Source: an uncultured Gammaproteobacteria bacterium (GTDB lineage Bacteria; Pseudomonadota; Gammaproteobacteria; Pseudomonadales; Pseudohongiellaceae). Taken from it: a DNA stretch of 41,235 nucleotides. The stretch lies in NCBI GenBank assembly GCA_903887045.1, contig CAISOD010000253.1, forward strand, positions 1 to 41,235, given 5' to 3'. Under the pieces are notes generated by a model that did not search any database, was not told where the DNA came from, and was given only the letters and a program-made list of their open reading frames with translations. Position numbers and translations under genes: made by a program. Of the stretch, positions 32,425 through 41,186 are shown piece by piece (within the stretch, counting starts at the first letter, position 1; every line of letters begins with the position of its first letter).

Positions 32425-33279
32425 TTAAGGGACGATGCTGCTGCTACGATCCACTGAGCTGGCTTCGCCACCGACCATCAGTTCCGCTGCATAGTTGGCT
32501 TGCTGGCAAACATATTCGAACAATTCTTCACCCTGGTTCCAGCGCAGGTTGAAACCTCCATCGAACGTCTTCGTATAGGCACCCGGGTCATCGAGCGTGA
32601 TGCGGTAATCGATGGTGTTCTTGTCGGTGCGCGTGAAGCGTTCAATCGTATGCAGCTGGTCCGTATGCGGCATGCCGCGACGATCAAGCCAGAACTGCTC
32701 AGTGAACCCAACGCTGTCAACCACCAGCGTATTGCCTTCCCACCTGCCTACCGAGTGACCATAGTAGGTGTGCTGAAAATCAGCTGGGTGTTCACGACCG
32801 TCCATGTAGATGGTACGGAATGTGTGCGGGCCGCCTATGTCAAAAATGATGATCTGCTCAAGTTCCGGCAGCTCGACAAATTCAACACCGTAAGGAGTGA
32901 GGAACTGGCGGGCAGTACCCGATGCCTTGCAGCGTGTGTGCGGCTCGAGTTCGCGGGTCTGGCGGTAGTCATACAACGCTTTTGACCATGGCTGGAATGG
33001 AATCTGCTCGTACGGGGTGATCGGGTCAAGGATACCGAATACCGGTGTCCAGGTGCCTTTGTCGCTCGGATCAGCGCCCTGCAAAAGCACTCTGCCGGCT
33101 GCATTGACCGGAGCCGGACCTGCTGGTGGCTGCTGCGCACGCTGCCCCTGCTGTGGTGCTGCGGTGGAAGAACTGGAACCCAGCGTATTCTGGGCTGCCG
33201 GTTGTGCAACAGCCACTGCGGCCACGGCGACTGCCAGTAGGGCCAAAGTTGCCTTGAGAGTTACATTGAAATTCTTCAT
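32425..33279 (-). CDS. secreted protein of unknown function, stand-alone 'WEGxTLVV/PHT' domain
   Basis: A 284-residue exported protein. Signal peptide about 1-25 (cleavage at VAVA-QP). A low-complexity Ser/Gln/Pro/Ala linker (30-58) follows, then a domain from about 95 to 265 with PFQPWSKALYDYRQTRE, RTIYMDGREH (156-164), GHSVGRWEGNTLVV (174-187), GFTEQFWLDRRGMPHTDQL (191-209) and ERFTRTDKNT (213-222). C117 and C258 bracket the domain and could pair. The same domain is the C-terminal half of the protein encoded at 33805-34917, where both cysteines are kept. I know the family only as an uncharacterised one expanded in TonB-receptor-rich bacteria. Last gene of a four-gene operon, 20 bp after the previous one. 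Confidence 0.8.
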   Translation of the reverse strand: MKNFNVTLKATLALLAVAVAAVAVAQPAAQNTLGSSSSTAAPQQGQRAQQPPAGPAPVNAAGRVLLQGADPSDKGTWTPVFGILDPITPYEQIPFQPWSKALYDYRQTRELEPHTRCKASGTARQFLTPYGVEFVELPELEQIIIFDIGGPHTFRTIYMDGREHPADFQHTYYGHSVGRWEGNTLVVDSVGFTEQFWLDRRGMPHTDQLHTIERFTRTDKNTIDYRITLDDPGAYTKTFDGGFNLRWNQGEELFEYVCQQANYAAELMVGGEASSVDRSSSIVP

Positions 33280-33299
33280 TGGCTCTGCCTCTGTCGGGA

Positions 33300-33743
33300 T
33301 CAGTTTTTCGGTTCTTGTTCTTTGGCGCGTTCTTCCAACTGGCTTGAACCCGCATCCAGCGTAGCACCGGGAGCGCCGCCGGTGCTGGCCAAGGTCACAT
33401 TCTTGGCATTGGCTCGCTTGCTGCCATTGCGAGCCAGGAAGCCGTCGACAGTTACCACAGTGCCGATAGACAGTGTGTCACGACGCCAGCCGCGGCGTTG
33501 CAACAAGTGTGGAGGTCCGAATTCCACGCCCCAGTTGACTGTCTGGCCATTGGTCGGGTCCTTCACGTTCATGTATATCCATACATGCGGGTTGGTCCAT
33601 TCGACCTTGGTGACAATACCGTTCAACGCAATGGTTTTTTCAGCATCAAACTCGGCAGCGAATGAGTGGTGGGCTACGGCAGCGTCTGCCGCTGCAAGGC
33701 CAAGGGACGCTGCCAGCATGGCGGCGATTAACCTGGATTTCAT
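33300..33743 (-). CDS. secreted DUF6152-type protein (stand-alone OB-like domain)
   Basis: A 147-residue exported protein. AGGAG seven bases before 33743 fixes the start. The signal peptide ends AAVA at 21-24, so the mature protein would begin with His-His (H25, H26) in HHSFAAEFDAEK. The rest reads like one OB-type barrel: LNGIVTKVEWTNPHVWIYMNV, then VNWGVEFGPPHLLQRRGW, GTVVTVDGFLARNGSKRANA, followed by a charged disordered tail. The family match (DUF6152) is from memory of its HHSF start and VEWxNPH motif. It is paralogous to the N-terminal half of the fused protein just upstream (shared F-D, L/S-G-I-V-T, W-x-NP, ARNGS). Function unknown. Confidence 0.82.
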   Translation of the reverse strand: MKSRLIAAMLAASLGLAAADAAVAHHSFAAEFDAEKTIALNGIVTKVEWTNPHVWIYMNVKDPTNGQTVNWGVEFGPPHLLQRRGWRRDTLSIGTVVTVDGFLARNGSKRANAKNVTLASTGGAPGATLDAGSSQLEERAKEQEPKN

Positions 33744-33804
33744 CTGACTACTCCTGATTTTTGTACTTGGCAATGACCTGCCGTTGAACTTGTCATCCGG
33801 CTCA

Positions 33805-34917
33805 TCATGGACGGTTGTCCTGACAGAAGAACGTCGGTACTTCCTGACCGGCTACCCACTGCATGGTCCAGCTCGCATTCCAGGGACGCGTGTAGGCACC
33901 GGCGTCTGTAAGAGTTACCTGGTATTGCAGCGTATTCATGTCTGAACGGGTAAAACGTTCGGTGAGTTCCAGCTTGTTCGTGTGCGGCAATCCGCCGTTG
34001 GTCAACCAGAAGTCTTCGTTGAAGCCCTTGGTGCTTACGACTAGTGTGTCGCCTTCCCATTTCCCAAGTGCACGACCGTAGTACAAGGGGTTGTCATCAT
34101 CTCCGGTCACGCTGCCCACTTTCTCCCGACCATCCATGTAGATGATACGGTAGTTGCGGTTGCCACTTCCCATCAGGATGAAGATCCGCTCATTGACTTT
34201 GTCTTCGACAAACTTGATGCCTAGATCGCTTTGGTACTGACGCGGACCTCCAGGCGGTTTGCAGTTGATGAACATCGGGTCGTCCTGCAGGCTGCGTTCC
34301 TGGCGATGTGCATACAAAGCCAGAGCCCACGGCTGCATCGGTGCAACCTTGGCGGCATCACCCAGCTCAGTCAGTTGGCCGTAACGATCCATCGGCACAT
34401 TGACACCGTCTTCCACCAGAGCGTGTTCACTAGGGAAGCCCCAGTAACCTTCGGCAGAACCCAGGATTACTTTACCGTCAGCGCCACGGGGAGCCGGTTC
34501 ACTGCGTGCCGGCGTTGCAGGCTTGAGGTCTTTCAAAGTGAAAACCGGTTTGCCTGCTACTGTCATTGTTTCCGACCATAGTTGTCGCGAACCATTGCGG
34601 GCACGCAGACCTTTGACGTCAACCCTATCACCCGGTTTGACGCTGGCTTCATTCCAGCCACTGCCTTTGAGGATCAACGGGCTTTCCAGCTCAACTGCCC
34701 AGTTGGTCACGGTGCTGCCATCGGTAACGTTGACGAATACATGGGCCCGCGGGTTTTTCCAGTCAACATAGGTGACGATGCCGGAAAGACTCATTTCACT
34801 GGCAGGGTCGAACTTGGCGATGATCGCCGGCTGGGCACTGACGTGCTCTATTCCAGCGCCCAACGCAGTGGCCAGCACCACCAGGCGGATCATGGATTTG
34901 AGTTTTGATTTTTGCAT
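33805..34917 (-). CDS. secreted two-domain protein: DUF6152-like OB domain fused to 'WEGxTLVV/PHT' domain
   Basis: A 370-residue exported protein. The start at 34917 has AGGA in front and a signal peptide (about 1-28, HVSA-QP); 80 codons of open frame further upstream are not supported. Residues 30-125 match the 33300-33743 protein (MSLSGIVTYVDWKNPRAHVF, GLRARNGSR). Residues 195-370 match the 32425-33279 protein: MQPWALALYAHRQERS, RIIYMDGRE, LGKWEGDTLVV (284-294), FNEDFWLTNGGLPHTNKL and ERFTRSDMNT. C219 and C365 match its two cysteines. The mature N-terminus lacks the His-His of the stand-alone copy. A central linker (130-190) is Pro/Ala-rich. Same operon as both; function unknown. Confidence 0.82.
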   Translation of the reverse strand: MQKSKLKSMIRLVVLATALGAGIEHVSAQPAIIAKFDPASEMSLSGIVTYVDWKNPRAHVFVNVTDGSTVTNWAVELESPLILKGSGWNEASVKPGDRVDVKGLRARNGSRQLWSETMTVAGKPVFTLKDLKPATPARSEPAPRGADGKVILGSAEGYWGFPSEHALVEDGVNVPMDRYGQLTELGDAAKVAPMQPWALALYAHRQERSLQDDPMFINCKPPGGPRQYQSDLGIKFVEDKVNERIFILMGSGNRNYRIIYMDGREKVGSVTGDDDNPLYYGRALGKWEGDTLVVSTKGFNEDFWLTNGGLPHTNKLELTERFTRSDMNTLQYQVTLTDAGAYTRPWNASWTMQWVAGQEVPTFFCQDNRP

Positions 34918-35679: not shown

Positions 35680-38600
35680 TCAGAAGTTCATGTTGAGGCT
35701 GAGCTGATAACGACGCCCAAACTGTTCGTGGCTGTTGCTGAGCGCCTGGCCACCTGCACCTGCAATGATCGGCGGGTCGCGATCAAACAGATTGTTTATG
35801 TTGAAGCCAACCTGCCAATCACCACCATTGTTCAAGTCCCGACCATAGGTAAAGGCCAGGTTGAAAACGGTTTGTGAGGCAACGGTGTTGTCATCCACAT
35901 CTACCCCCTCTACCCAATTGGAGGTGGGACCGGTTAGACCTTCGTTGTTGCCGTTGCTCAACGTGCTGTCGTAGTAAGTTGTCTGCAACATGATGCCGTA
36001 GTCGGCAATGTTGTAGTTGAGCGTTGCCAGTGCCGTGAACTCCGGAGTCGAGATGCGCTTCACAAAGTTCGTGTATATGCCGGCAGCCGTCGTCGTTGAG
36101 CGTTCGGACAGATAGCCAGCCATTGCGCGCAGGTTGAGGCTCTCCTCCTGGCTTCCGAACAGATTGGGTACCGCGCTGTACTGCAATTCCACGTCTACAC
36201 CGCGGGTTTGAGCTCCGCCCGCGTTGGTTTGCACGTTCAGAATCTGCTGTACCTGGTTGGTGACAGGATCACGTCTGACCAGGCTGCATGCAAACGGATC
36301 CTTGGTGGTATAGCAGTCATTGACAATGGCTTGACCACCGTACAGACCGATCGATTTATCAAGATCGATCTCGAACCAGTCGATGGCTAATTGCGTGCCG
36401 TCAATCCACTCGGCAAAGCTCGGCTGATACACGAAGCCGGTGGTAATGGTATCGCCCTGTTCCGTCTGCAGGCCGGGGTTCGGCGAAGGCAGGATGGTCA
36501 AGGAGTTGTTTACCGCACCACCAAAGGCCGGGTCGTTGATAGTGCCACCGCCCGCGCCTGTGAAATAGCGTTCGCTCAGGTTGGGCTCACGCACGTCGCG
36601 GGACTTGGTGAAGCGCCAGCGCAGATCTTCGAACAACGTAACATCGAGACCGACCTTCCAGCTGTCAACAATGCCGGAAGTTGTGTAATCCGATTTGCGA
36701 TAGCCAAGGTTGGTACTGATGCTTTGACCGGTAGCGAATTCCCATACCGGGACGTTCAACTCGGCATAAATTTCGCGCACAGTGTTGGCGCCTGTACCTA
36801 CCGAAGGACCAGTGAATGCATGCAGAGTACGGTTGCCCGGACCAGCAAAGCCGGGCGGGATTCCTCGAATACCAAGAGCGGGTGCGTTGAGCAGACCGCG
36901 CTCGCCGAATGTAGGCAATGTGTATTGCAGTACTTCTTCATCGCGATAGGTCAAACCAAATGCAGCTCCGACAGGACCGGCACCCCAACCTTCGTAAAGA
37001 TCACCGTTCAGCAGGATTTCCGCAAAATCCTGATCCATTTCACGGACGGATTTCTTCTGATCGTTGAAGTAGTCGATGGATTCCTGCGAAACGTTACCTG
37101 AGCCGAAGATATTCTGCGGGCGGCATCCAGCAGCATCCAACGGACCTACCGGCGAACTTGCAGTCACGCCAGCGGGACTCAACGGGCTGGGCAGGATCTT
37201 GCCCTGCATGAATGCCGCCAACTGGGCTTCCGTCGGGTTGACGGTACTGACCTTACAGACAATCTTGCCAGAGGCATCCCGCACTGCATCGATAGAAAGG
37301 TAGTACTCATCTATTCGTGGCATGTTCCAAGTGCCTGTCTGCACCTTGCTCTTGCCGATCTGATAGTTACCGGTCAGTTGCCAGTTGCCATCAACTTCCC
37401 AATCAAAACCAACGGTCGCTGACTCCATGAAGCTCAGGTCGCGATTGGTACGATCGTCATAAGCATTGAGGCGGCCGGGAACCCGAATCTGACCGCGCTT
37501 CTCAACCGTGATCGTCTGCCGGTTGGTGCGGATCATCTCATCCCGGACCACCTGTGGCAGGTAGGGGTTTTCCTGATCAATTATGTAGGCGTACTGGGGG
37601 CCGGCGATGGTCATCTGACTGCGCAAGCCACGGGTGTTGGATTCGGTACGGCCGGCCATGGCCTGGGCGCGAACGCTGAAGCTGTCGCTCACGTCGTACT
37701 TCAGGGCACTGAAGAATGAACGCTGTACTACTTCGTTGCCGTCGGGACCGGCAGCAAAAGCCTGGATATTGTTGTTGTACTCAGGGCCACCGCTTTGGCT
37801 GTTGGTGAAGCTGTTGCTGTATTGGCCAAATTGATATGGACGAACGCCTTTGCCATCTTCGGTAAAGGTATAGTTATTGAATGCAAAACCTGCTGTTGTG
37901 ATCGTGCCGTTTGGGGAACCGCGGTTATCAAAGACATAAGGCACCGTGATACGACGCGGGACGTTCGGCGTGGCAGTGGCAGAGACCCAAGCCGGGTTCT
38001 GGACCAGACCCATGTCATTCCAGTTGTCGAGACGATTGCGGTCAGCAATTATCTGGTCAATGAAGCGGGTCTCCAGGGAACCGACAAAGTGCAGACGGTC
38101 ATCCATGAAGCTGGTACCACCAGCGACGGACAGGTTGTAGTTTTCACCGTCCATCCGTTCGGAAACACCGGTAGAAACCTTGGTTTTCAGACCCTCGAAC
38201 TCGCGGTCAAGGACGAAGTTGACCACACCCGCCAAAGCGTCAGCACCGTAGGCGGCCGAAGCGCCGCCAGTGATGACATCTACACGTTGCATCAATGCAG
38301 TCGGAAAGTTGTCGATGTTGGTGGCGCCACCGGCGTCAGCCGGAATCACGCGAGAACCATCAAGCAGTACCAGGGTACGCTGAGTCCCCATGCCGCGAAG
38401 GTTCAGGAAACTGCCGCTGGCAGTTGTAAAAGTGGTACCACCGCGCTGTGCTGTCTGGGTGTTGAAGAACTGAGGCAATTGGTCGAGCTGCTCTGCCATC
38501 GTCGACGCCGGATTCAAAGTGCTGAGTTCCGAGGTGGTAACTGCAGTGACCGGAGTTGGCGTGGTCATGCTGGTGGTGGTACGAATACGAGAACCGGTTA

Positions 38601-38721
38601 CCTGGATTTCTTCAATATTGGAAGCTTCCCCTTGTTCTTGTGCAAAGACGCTGCCTGCGAAGACTGCCGTCATTGCCGTGACCAACAGCTTTTGACGGTA
38701 ATACATTGAGTTACTGCGCAT
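35680..38721 (-). CDS. TonB-dependent outer-membrane receptor
   Basis: A 1013-residue outer-membrane active transporter. The start at 38721 has AGGAGT upstream and a signal peptide (about 1-27, SVFA-QE). A TonB-box-like IEEIQVTGSRIR (36-47) precedes the plug (LNLRGMGTQRTLVLLDGSRV, MQRVDVITGGASAAYGADA, GVVNFVLDREFEGL). The barrel follows, ending in SLNMNF with the terminal Phe needed for BamA. Two Cys pairs lie in predicted extracellular loops. No siderophore- or B12-specific signature is evident. It resembles the large receptor class expanded in sphingomonads, Cellvibrionales and similar scavengers. The ligand is unknown. It has its own terminator; the secreted-protein operon lies downstream on the same strand. 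Confidence 0.93.
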   Translation of the reverse strand: MRSNSMYYRQKLLVTAMTAVFAGSVFAQEQGEASNIEEIQVTGSRIRTTTSMTTPTPVTAVTTSELSTLNPASTMAEQLDQLPQFFNTQTAQRGGTTFTTASGSFLNLRGMGTQRTLVLLDGSRVIPADAGGATNIDNFPTALMQRVDVITGGASAAYGADALAGVVNFVLDREFEGLKTKVSTGVSERMDGENYNLSVAGGTSFMDDRLHFVGSLETRFIDQIIADRNRLDNWNDMGLVQNPAWVSATATPNVPRRITVPYVFDNRGSPNGTITTAGFAFNNYTFTEDGKGVRPYQFGQYSNSFTNSQSGGPEYNNNIQAFAAGPDGNEVVQRSFFSALKYDVSDSFSVRAQAMAGRTESNTRGLRSQMTIAGPQYAYIIDQENPYLPQVVRDEMIRTNRQTITVEKRGQIRVPGRLNAYDDRTNRDLSFMESATVGFDWEVDGNWQLTGNYQIGKSKVQTGTWNMPRIDEYYLSIDAVRDASGKIVCKVSTVNPTEAQLAAFMQGKILPSPLSPAGVTASSPVGPLDAAGCRPQNIFGSGNVSQESIDYFNDQKKSVREMDQDFAEILLNGDLYEGWGAGPVGAAFGLTYRDEEVLQYTLPTFGERGLLNAPALGIRGIPPGFAGPGNRTLHAFTGPSVGTGANTVREIYAELNVPVWEFATGQSISTNLGYRKSDYTTSGIVDSWKVGLDVTLFEDLRWRFTKSRDVREPNLSERYFTGAGGGTINDPAFGGAVNNSLTILPSPNPGLQTEQGDTITTGFVYQPSFAEWIDGTQLAIDWFEIDLDKSIGLYGGQAIVNDCYTTKDPFACSLVRRDPVTNQVQQILNVQTNAGGAQTRGVDVELQYSAVPNLFGSQEESLNLRAMAGYLSERSTTTAAGIYTNFVKRISTPEFTALATLNYNIADYGIMLQTTYYDSTLSNGNNEGLTGPTSNWVEGVDVDDNTVASQTVFNLAFTYGRDLNNGGDWQVGFNINNLFDRDPPIIAGAGGQALSNSHEQFGRRYQLSLNMNF

Positions 38722-39223
38722 TATGAGATTGACTCCTGTTGTGATTTTTTTCTGCTTCCTTCCCACCGTTCGTGACTCTACTTCTTGATTCGGCCCGGTC
38801 ACTTGGCTCGAATCGGTGGCAAGAAAGCTTCCCCCCATGAATACAGGGACGGTAATAGCCGGGTGCCTGCAGACATGGTGCTTACTTTTTCCCGCGCAAA
38901 CGGGCAGAGGCGCTTTTATATTAAGAATTCGCCTTCTGATTTTTTACGCTATCCAATCTTTACGGTCAACCTGATAATCAAGGAAGCAATCAGCAATAAC
39001 TGCAAGAGCGGCCAAATTTTGATTGCCATGAATATCGATTCCAGCATTAGAAATTGCGCGAAATAAGTTTCGTTTGCCGAAAATCCAGCCAAGCGATATG
39101 TTGGCTTCCGCATTGCCAGTAGTCGCCGTGACAAATCCGACATTGCCTGAGTATCATCCCACCGCAGCATGGATGCGGCACAACAACAAGACGCCGGTAT
39201 CAGCGCTGTCCAAGGATATTGAA
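38722..39223. other. intergenic divergent control region
   Basis: A 502 bp gap between the receptor (minus) and the beta-propeller gene (plus). It is clearly more AT-rich than its surroundings around 38905-39075 and holds the receptor promoter described separately. No tRNA, no convincing coding frame of either strand, and no repeat was seen. The open frames that cross it are upstream extensions without a ribosome binding site. A transcription-factor site is likely but I cannot identify a palindrome with confidence. Confidence 0.5.
38941..38969 (-). promoter_or_regulatory. candidate sigma-70 promoter of the TonB-dependent receptor
   Basis: On the minus strand TTGACC (38969-38964, five of six), a 17 bp spacer and TAAAAA (38946-38941, four of six). 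A start near 38934 implies a ~210 nt leader to the ATG at 38721. Confidence 0.45.
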
Positions 39224-40199: not shown

Positions 40200-41186
40200 A
40201 TGAACACTTTTGCAAGAAGTTCTGTCTTGGTGCTCTGTCTGTCTTCGCTCTGGGCAATACCGTCACTTGCCCAGGCGCCGGGCCAACCCAGCGCAGTTAT
40301 CAAAGTCGGCTGCGATCGTGACTGCCTGATTGGTTTTGCCCGTAATTACATCGCAGCGTTGAAAAACCGCGATGCCGACAGCGCTCGCCTCTCGCCGGAC
40401 GTCATGTTCTCCGAGAACAATGTACTGATGCCGGTTGGCAATGACGGCTTGTGGGGCACCATTTCCACAGTGCGCGACGGCGCGCTGGAACTGGCAGATC
40501 CACAAACAGGCAATGCCGCCTGGTTCGGCATTGTTGAAGAACACGGCAATCCTGCTTACCTGGCCATGCGCATCAAGGTGGAGCACAACCTGATTACTGA
40601 AATTGAAACCATCGTCAACCGTCTGCCTGACATGCCGAAACCGTTTGGCGATCCTGACAAGGTCACCCACGATCCAACCTGGAACGATATCCTGCCTCCG
40701 GAACAATGGCGTGCGCGTGAACGCCTGGTGGCTGTGGCTGATGGCTACTTCAATACAGTAGAACTCAACGACGGCCAAGTGTTCACCGACTTCGCAGAAG
40801 ACTGCGGCCGCCTTGAAAACGGCATCAGTACTACCAGCAACGGCGGCTCGGCCAGTATTGCCCAAGGTTGCGAAGCCCAGTTCAGGCTCGGCATCTACCG
40901 TATCAACAAGCGTGTGCGCGAACGCCGCTACCCGTTGATCGACGAAGCGCGCGGCATTGTGCTGGCTAGCGGATTCTTCGACCACGCCAACACCTTCGAC
41001 AGCTACAAGCTCACCGACGGTCGCGAAATGAAAACCGTTCTGAAGTGGCCCAACTCAATCTCGCTGCTGGAAGCCTTCAAGATCCGTAGCGGCGAAATCT
41101 CGCGCGTCGAAGCAGTATTCACCTATGTGCCCTACTTCATGCCGTCGCCGTTTGCTACCTCCAACGTCGACTACCAGACCCGCTGA
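40200..41186 (+). CDS. secreted tandem NTF2/SnoaL-like protein (DUF8021-like)
   Basis: A 328-residue exported protein with a signal peptide (about 1-25, SLAQA). Two cone-shaped NTF2-like units seem present: CLIGFARNYIAALKNRDADS with LMPVGNDGLWGT at about 40-85, and LVAVADGYFNTVELNDGQVF with FAEDCGRLENG at about 175-205. The closing RVEAVFTYVPYFMPSPF resembles what I remember of DUF8021 proteins, found in fungi and some proteobacteria; this is from memory. Four cysteines in the mature part (in GCDRDC, EDC and QGC) could form disulfides. No enzyme activity can be assigned. It follows the beta-propeller gene and precedes a third secreted protein on the same strand. Confidence 0.72.
   Translation: MNTFARSSVLVLCLSSLWAIPSLAQAPGQPSAVIKVGCDRDCLIGFARNYIAALKNRDADSARLSPDVMFSENNVLMPVGNDGLWGTISTVRDGALELADPQTGNAAWFGIVEEHGNPAYLAMRIKVEHNLITEIETIVNRLPDMPKPFGDPDKVTHDPTWNDILPPEQWRARERLVAVADGYFNTVELNDGQVFTDFAEDCGRLENGISTTSNGGSASIAQGCEAQFRLGIYRINKRVRERRYPLIDEARGIVLASGFFDHANTFDSYKLTDGREMKTVLKWPNSISLLEAFKIRSGEISRVEAVFTYVPYFMPSPFATSNVDYQTR

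Follow-up and report, generated by a model that had tools for sequence, protein, structure and literature searches.

N-terminal histidines suggest a metal-binding role for DUF6152, a secreted domain found separate and fused in one Pseudohongiellaceae operon

Introduction

Why does one bacterial operon encode the same two secreted domains twice, once as separate proteins and once joined in a single chain, and what might these domains do? The question is raised by a stretch of 41,235 nucleotides (GenBank assembly GCA_903887045.1, contig CAISOD010000253.1, positions 1 to 41,235 of the forward strand), called the window here, which comes from an uncultured gammaproteobacterium of the family Pseudohongiellaceae. 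Three neighbouring genes of the window encode a fused protein, a separate copy of its first domain, which is DUF6152 (PF19649), and a separate copy of its second domain, which is called C here (Table 1). An original prediction had described this arrangement as duplication followed by division of labour between two domains that belong together. That interpretation is partly supported by the analysis presented here; it had overlooked the scale of the family, a conserved His-His at the N-terminus of DUF6152 and a membrane partner, DUF6644 (PF20349). We propose, with slightly better than even confidence, that DUF6152 would be a metal module with an oligonucleotide/oligosaccharide-binding (OB) fold, holding its metal through N-terminal histidines and working with the membrane partner and with C, and that the fused copy of the window would be metal-free.

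Two secreted domains in separate and fused form

PF19649 matches the separate DUF6152 protein with an E value of 1.4e-29 and 102.5 bits and the fused protein with 5.6e-19 and 68.5 bits, both above the curated gathering cut-off of 27, which confirms the predicted identity of the first domain. With an iterated C profile, the separate C protein reaches 220 bits and the fused protein 192 bits, and both cysteines that mark the ends of C are kept in at least 90% of 27 diverse C domains. The positions, strands and motifs of the three genes had been read correctly: GIVTxVxWxNP, ARNGS, YMDGRE, GxWEGxTLVV and PHTxxLxxxERFTRxDxNT were each found in fused and separate copies, and they reflect homology, as PF19649 matches both DUF6152 copies and the two C domains are 45% identical over residues 191-367 of the fused protein. 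All three share a strand and are separated by 20 and 61 nucleotides.

As had been stated, no function is on record for either domain; Pfam lists none for DUF6152, and C belongs to no named family. The C protein of the window has no Pfam or NCBIfam match, no family of either collection is matched by more than one of 27 diverse C members (best E values 0.04 and 0.053), and the C profile found no PDB sequence at E values up to 10. The fused protein gave only chance-level matches to PDB sequences (best E value 0.05), and profile searches of PDB with alignments A1 and A2 gave none and seven chance-level matches, respectively. In the portion of PubMed Central (PMC) that was searched, no paper was found on DUF6152, DUF6644, PF19649 or PF20349, and nothing relevant on expanded secreted families.

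Conserved histidines of DUF6152 and their loss in the fused copy

Over the loci that were read, 177 DUF6152 domains were located and aligned, and 174 of them have two consecutive histidines at the same place, the remaining three being two with Gln-Pro and one truncated there. A later histidine is equally frequent (174 of 177, in the context PH in 172 and NH in two), with arginine in two domains and one truncated domain. The untruncated exceptions to both motifs are the fused protein of the window and its closest orthologue (L021/L182), unlike all other untruncated domains. A profile built without the histidine columns recovered 176 domains in the same set of open reading frames (ORFs) and none new, with the same two untruncated exceptions. 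Mean pairwise identity of DUF6152 is 33% (56 domains of the window's genome), and the retention of these histidines despite such divergence is therefore counted in favour of a metal site.

The two histidines stand directly behind a predicted export signal. Residues -19 to -5 before them are hydrophobic in 98% of 173 rows (mean Kyte-Doolittle value above 1), and residue -1 is alanine in 169 and serine in six of the 177 domains. In the separate DUF6152 protein the predicted cleavage between AVA and HH would place a histidine at the mature N-terminus. The fused protein has Gln-Pro there and an arginine in place of the histidine of its Asn-Pro-His motif. Among the genomes of the window's genus, which hold 31 matches to the fused protein (30 read as loci, 29 of these with the fused DUF6152 half), 27 of the 29 readable fused homologues keep the three histidines, and only the window protein and its orthologue are without them. 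These two form a sister pair on the DUF6152 tree (support 100/97), so that the three residues were lost jointly in one lineage.

Decay of the fused DUF6152 half was considered and is not supported, in view of its 85% identity to the L021 copy and of a ratio of nonsynonymous to synonymous substitution rates (dN/dS) of about 0.08, a value obtained with synonymous sites near saturation. The fused copy is predicted instead to be a derivative that lacks the metal site. The window species retains the intact set of histidines in its separate DUF6152 gene. At the locus of the orthologue (L021, L182) no separate DUF6152 lies between the fused gene and C, and that block therefore holds no intact predicted site. 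The division of labour proposed earlier gains a concrete difference in this way, because the fused copy of the window species and of its nearest relative has lost three conserved histidines.

Table 1. Genes of the window operon, its upstream neighbours and the histidine positions discussed in the text
Feature	Positions	Strand	Evidence
Fused gene, 370 aa: signal peptide, DUF6152, then C domain	33805-34917	-	PF19649 + C profile
Predicted mature N-terminus of the fused protein, with Gln29-Pro30 instead of His-His	34828-34833	-	sequence
Asn-Pro-Arg in place of Asn-Pro-His, fused protein	34747-34755	-	sequence
DUF6152 alone, 147 aa: predicted OB-fold domain behind a signal peptide	33300-33743	-	PF19649
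His25-His26, first residues after the predicted cleavage between AVA and HH, separate DUF6152	33666-33671	-	sequence + alignment
Asn-Pro-His, with His53 as third conserved histidine, separate DUF6152	33585-33593	-	sequence + alignment
Separate C-domain gene, 284 aa, secreted judging from its N-terminal sequence	32425-33279	-	C profile
Upstream neighbour of the fused gene: small secreted protein of 125 aa	35015-35392	-	no Pfam/NCBIfam match
TonB-dependent receptor, farther upstream	35680-38838	-	Plug domain E 1.2e-17

Predicted fold and relation to N-terminal-histidine proteins

The DUF6152 part is predicted to be an OB fold in both proteins. AlphaFold2 models of the mature separate DUF6152 and of the mature fused protein have mean predicted local distance difference test (pLDDT) scores of 82.1 and 82.0 and predicted template modelling (pTM) scores of 0.76 and 0.78. 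The best listed match of the separate domain is PriB (4apv; Z 9.6, root mean square deviation 2.1, 82 residues), which is also the best listed match of the DUF6152 part of the fused protein (Z 10.1, root mean square deviation 2.3, 80 residues). Foldseek matches were weak, with none at an E value of 0.001 or below for the separate domain and one for the fused protein. The C part of the fused model is mostly beta, with helices in front.

Proteins are known in which a histidine behind the signal peptide leads to a metal site, and PMC12537917 describes DUF4198, DUF6702 and the anglerases Ang-1 and Ang-2 as such; a histidine brace, according to PMC10952591, consists of an N-terminal histidine chelate plus a further histidine. 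DUF6152 resembles the former proteins in its conserved histidine right behind the signal peptide and in having further possible ligands, whereas these have beta-sandwich folds (PMC12537917) and DUF6152 starts with His-His. A term search found no mention of DUF6152 in the main text of that article. CusF and SilF are called the sole OB-fold proteins with metal binding as their only function, with ligands inside the chain, namely a histidine, two methionines and a tryptophan (His63, Trp71, Met74 and Met76 in SilF), in PMC10656224. DUF6152 is like them a secreted domain of predicted OB fold; copper binding is known for CusF and SilF and predicted for DUF6152, whose site would differ in being formed by the N-terminal His-His and NPH. 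CusF is absent from the 50 listed fold matches, which excludes nothing.

These matches are largely nucleic-acid binders and OB folds commonly bind oligomers, so DUF6152 could also be a ligand or glycan binder without any metal, in which HH and NPH have a structural or export role and the copies are ordinary duplicates. The continued constraint on the fused copy without histidines would agree with this. Against such a binder, which we consider unlikely, stand the conservation of three histidines across very distant members, two of them at the predicted mature start, the fact that one lineage lost them jointly, and the probably CopD-related partner described below.

DUF6644, a membrane partner of the short DUF6152 proteins

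A short subfamily of DUF6152, which has the motif HHGW and lacks C, accounts for 20 of the 177 domains. Its 20 loci (L108-L127) are those read in other Pseudomonadota, a subset of the weak DUF6152 matches, and 19 of the 20 genomes have a single DUF6152. In all 20 loci DUF6644, recognised with its own profile, follows directly downstream on the same strand. Pfam searches with 74 of the 78 neighbouring ORFs (four were left out of alignment A6) gave 62 families, among which DUF6644 (six members) is the only one present in more than two. In a sample of 299 Pseudomonadota genomes that are at least 90% complete and include the window's genome, PF20349 was found in 26 at E values up to 0.001 (19 over the cut-off), and all 26 have DUF6152 (p 4e-30).

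The pair is also found on public plasmid records of Paracoccus, Comamonas and Azospirillum, and in each of the five plasmid records that were inspected a domain with AHHGW...PH precedes DUF6644. On Sinorhizobium pSymB the neighbour is labelled DUF2214. A DUF6644 relative on another Sinorhizobium plasmid was at one point thought to be without DUF6152, and this was discarded when a divergent DUF6152-like ORF with AHHGW...NPH was found directly upstream (E value 1e-5).

DUF6644 is probably related to CopD. One of ten DUF6644 proteins exceeds the cut-off of CopD (PF05425; 36.4 versus 32.1 bits), and at E values up to 1 the 59 DUF6644 rows include five matches to CopD, seven to UPF0093 and 21 to DUF2214. 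A histidine, a glycine and a lysine are invariant in all 59 rows, and this His/Lys pattern presumably resembles that of HemJ, for which a literature search gave no usable paper; DUF6644 is perhaps HemJ-like.

CopC and DUF1775 (YcnI) bind and exchange Cu(II) through an N-terminal histidine and are proposed to work with CopD, as described in PMC12362106. Like the CopC-CopD and YcnI/YcnJ pairs, the HHGW DUF6152 proteins are small, secreted and predicted to start with histidine, and are encoded beside a CopD-related membrane protein. Unlike these pairs, DUF6152 is a predicted OB fold without a Pfam CopC match, DUF6644 lies mostly below the CopD cut-off and the window locus has no DUF6644. The CopC searches covered the window proteins at E values up to 10 and 22 DUF6152 domains at up to 1, with HMMER filters that drop most weak matches. 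DUF6644 is a recurrent genomic partner of DUF6152, yet a separate membrane family. Its position beside the HHGW proteins, together with its similarity to CopD, is counted for the metal site, and DUF6152 would combine an OB fold, an N-terminal His-His and a CopD-related partner.

In the window's genome an array runs from a TonB receptor through an opposite-strand gene, two DUF6644 genes, a DUF1592 protein, a DUF1552 protein and an ankyrin protein to a fused DUF6152-C gene. The array contains one of the three PF20349 matches of this genome; it spans L168 (G000:C71:15000-22000) and L056 (G000:C71:21000-30945), and the first of its DUF6644 genes was recognised by our own profile only. The DUF1592 protein of this array carries DUF1587/1592/1595/1588/1585 and the DUF1552 protein has HXXSHH; the ankyrin and DUF1592 clusters recur in seven and six loci, respectively, read from this genome.

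A putative metal module and the evidence against it

On balance DUF6152 probably binds a metal, and copper is the likeliest. The secreted domain would bind one transition-metal ion at its mature N-terminus through three predicted ligands, which are His1, contributing both its amine and its side chain, His2 and the NPH-loop histidine, and the site would resemble a histidine brace. The simplest setting may be the two-gene operon with DUF6644, in which DUF6152 would work as CopC or YcnI does with CopD, holding the metal outside the membrane and then passing it to DUF6644 or exchanging electrons with it. In the window's family the second secreted domain, C, seems to have become the usual partner, and as the more variable half it would probably determine the docking partner or target of the module. 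Two modules would then be encoded in the window operon, a complete one made of separate DUF6152 and separate C, and a fused one without the three histidines, which may serve as a scaffold, decoy or competitor subunit without metal and be retained for its C domain and its protein contacts.

Several observations weigh against this model. Apart from DUF6644, no common copper gene was found among the 74 of 78 neighbouring ORFs of the HHGW loci. CopD is matched by a minority of DUF6644 members only, and six of the 59 rows called DUF6644 have no PF20349 match at E values up to 1. No DUF6644 lies within the window, and the window's genome has three PF20349 matches (one over the cut-off) versus 57 DUF6152 domains; most DUF6152 copies therefore cannot have a private DUF6644. 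Close relatives of DUF6644 occur in 72 plasmid records versus 22 with close relatives of the HHGW proteins, and five of these records were inspected for more distant DUF6152. Finally, copper handling by itself would hardly account for copy numbers in the tens per genome, and the module would therefore do more than copper uptake in this family. Variable recognition by C, or oxidative chemistry, would be the bolder readings of these numbers.

Linkage and expansion of DUF6152 and C

The window's genome assembly comprises 3,388,444 bases in 313 contigs, and 103 places in it resemble the fused protein (E values up to 0.01). A profile search of 50 stretches (444,507 bases including the window) gave 110 ORFs with 57 DUF6152 and 73 C domains between them, a count that includes at least two contig-end duplicates (L057/L068 and L071/L078) and a few genes split into two frames. 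C occurs alone in 51 of these ORFs and DUF6152 alone in 39, 18 are fused and two have two C matches; DUF6152 comes first in all 18 fused ORFs. Across the bacterial family of the window, DUF6152 was found in 118 of 119 genomes and C likewise in 118, G094 (88% complete) being the sole case where neither was found. Most genomes of the window's genus and of one sister genus have at least 38 DUF6152 and at least 28 C candidates, a third genus has 18 to 25 DUF6152 per genome, and the other five genera have 0 to 12.

In the 299 Pseudomonadota genomes DUF6152 is present in 35 and C in ten, and all ten C genomes carry DUF6152 (Fisher p 1.4e-10); in one of the ten (G375) the sole C match contains two stops. 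That the two domains belong together, as the original prediction had it, is supported by this survey and by the repeated change between fused and separate states on the C tree described below, and the possibility that they meet at the window locus alone is ruled out. Physical linkage points the same way: of the 157 DUF6152 domains outside the HHGW subfamily, 32 are fused to C, 107 have C within 700 nucleotides on the same strand, nine have it within 2 kb on either strand and nine are without C, so that 148 are fused to C or at most 2 kb from it. The loci had been chosen by a DUF6152 or C match, and these adjacency figures, like those on conservation, are conditional on that choice. Plasmids of Sphingobium, Novosphingobium and Croceibacterium carry DUF6152-C pairs too.

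Other arrangements were seen as well. Two C domains stand in tandem beside a separate DUF6152 at L039 5283-6833, L025 2007-3788 and L026 3798-5393. A C-domain ORF lies at L082 6001-7038, on a contig classed as viral in IMG/VR, and is the one C domain among four pattern matches on viral contigs, on which no DUF6152 was found with the separate DUF6152 protein as query. The Sphingobium sp. TomTYG65 plasmid (L083) has the order C-DUF6152-C-DUF6152; monooxygenases, TonB receptors, a peroxiredoxin and two DUF6644-like ORFs lie nearby.

The size of the expansion and the greater divergence of C, with 25% mean pairwise identity versus 33% for DUF6152, would also suit a case in which the histidines form a catalytic site, DUF6152 acts like a copper oxygenase or oxidase, C brings the substrate and the copies attack different organic compounds imported through TonB receptors. 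The TomTYG65 copies adjoin monooxygenases and TonB receptors, and within three genes of DUF6152 or C in the window's genome lie all six members of one TonB-receptor cluster, four of six members of a pyrroloquinoline quinone (PQQ) dehydrogenase cluster, five of seven members of the DUF1592 cluster and all three of the DUF1552 cluster. These neighbour counts come from stretches around the genes in question only and have no genome background. The N-terminal histidine is the sole hallmark of lytic polysaccharide monooxygenases (LPMOs) that was considered, and the CopD-like partner speaks for transport. The characterised N-terminal-histidine proteins (DUF4198, DUF6702 and the anglerases) have at most weak oxidase or peroxidase activity, according to PMC12537917. 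We regard a catalytic site as improbable, if slightly less so than a DUF6152 that binds no metal at all.

History of the window operon

The order small protein, fused gene, C was found in loci L021-L028 as far as these extend (L024 ends inside the fused gene and L026 inside the separate DUF6152), a recurrence that speaks against a chance arrangement. The separate DUF6152 sits between the fused gene and C in L022, L023 and L025-L028, and not in L021. A match to the fused protein was found in all 11 genomes of the window's genus (E values up to 1e-100), with at least 63% identity in ten of them; most of the loci L021-L028 stem from these 11 genomes, and the two sets are not independent. The assembly is fragmented and some contig ends duplicate genes, as mentioned above, which could raise the suspicion that an artefact of metagenome-assembled genome (MAG) assembly or annotation produced the arrangement. 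Recurrence in the genus genomes rules this out, and we give it hardly any credence. L028 belongs to a record titled as a Klebsiella pneumoniae MAG, and the lengths of its three ORFs (fused, DUF6152 and C) equal those of L189 from the window's genus; the two loci are identical over the fused stretch compared, and the title is probably wrong.

Only domains with a profile coverage of 75% or more entered the trees (95 C rows; 82 DUF6152 rows with 87 columns). On the C tree a clade of 24 rows (99/94) splits into two sister clades of 12, one with the fused and the other with the separate C of the window, a placement with which a local duplication of C would agree. The DUF6152 halves are not sisters on their tree, and forcing their clades together was not rejected (approximately unbiased (AU) test, p 0.495). 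The duplication proposed originally fits the C tree in this manner, and a common clade of the DUF6152 halves is neither shown nor rejected.

The label 'fused' changed at least six times on the C tree, counted with the truncated fused row L029_1 left out and the two-C proteins scored as not fused, and ten times (bootstrap 9-11) on the poorly resolved DUF6152 tree, where supported branches force three changes. The window's genome also holds an unfused order of small protein, C, DUF6152 and C (L031 8897-11467), the first C of which falls in the clade of the fused C of the window. This trio, with its small-protein homologue, and the sister clades of C would suit an account in which a fused or split pair was duplicated locally and divided its labour, with nothing further to explain. 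The family is far larger than this account takes in, fusion was gained or lost several times and the DUF6152 halves were not shown to be sisters. As a full explanation, local duplication seems very unlikely.

Genes upstream of the fused gene

The fused gene lies 97 nucleotides behind the gene of the small secreted protein, which in turn starts 287 nucleotides behind the TonB-dependent receptor gene. A homologue of the small protein is found upstream of the fused gene in all eight loci L021-L028, and this protein, which is of no known family, is a recurrent upstream neighbour. A TonB-receptor homologue was found upstream in L022, L023 and L024 only; none was found in the 1.2 to 5.6 kb that L021 and L025-L028 hold ahead of the small gene, and L029 can show neither presence nor absence. 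Membership of the receptor in the block is uncertain. Elsewhere in the window, positions 40200-41183 encode a secreted-looking protein of 328 residues without a Pfam match, which belongs to a cluster of four in the loci read from its own genome.

Implications

Two domains without a known function, one of them even without a family name, fill about a hundred ORFs of a 3.4-Mb genome. With the conserved N-terminal His-His, DUF6152 and, through it, DUF6644 have a concrete candidate function, and the window offers a natural control, in which a fused homologue without the three histidines stands beside an intact one. A wider proposal may be made, which we hold doubtful as a whole: DUF6152 would be an OB-fold metal-binding kind beside CusF and SilF with its own N-terminal His-His, it would form a widespread two-gene metal or redox system with DUF6644, one bacterial family would have expanded it to about fifty secreted modules per genome that differ in their variable C, and fused copies like that of the window would have given up the metal site and would regulate intact modules. 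If the metal module is true, it would represent a new class of metal site on the OB fold and would explain a large share of the proteins secreted by this bacterial family that have no assigned function at present.

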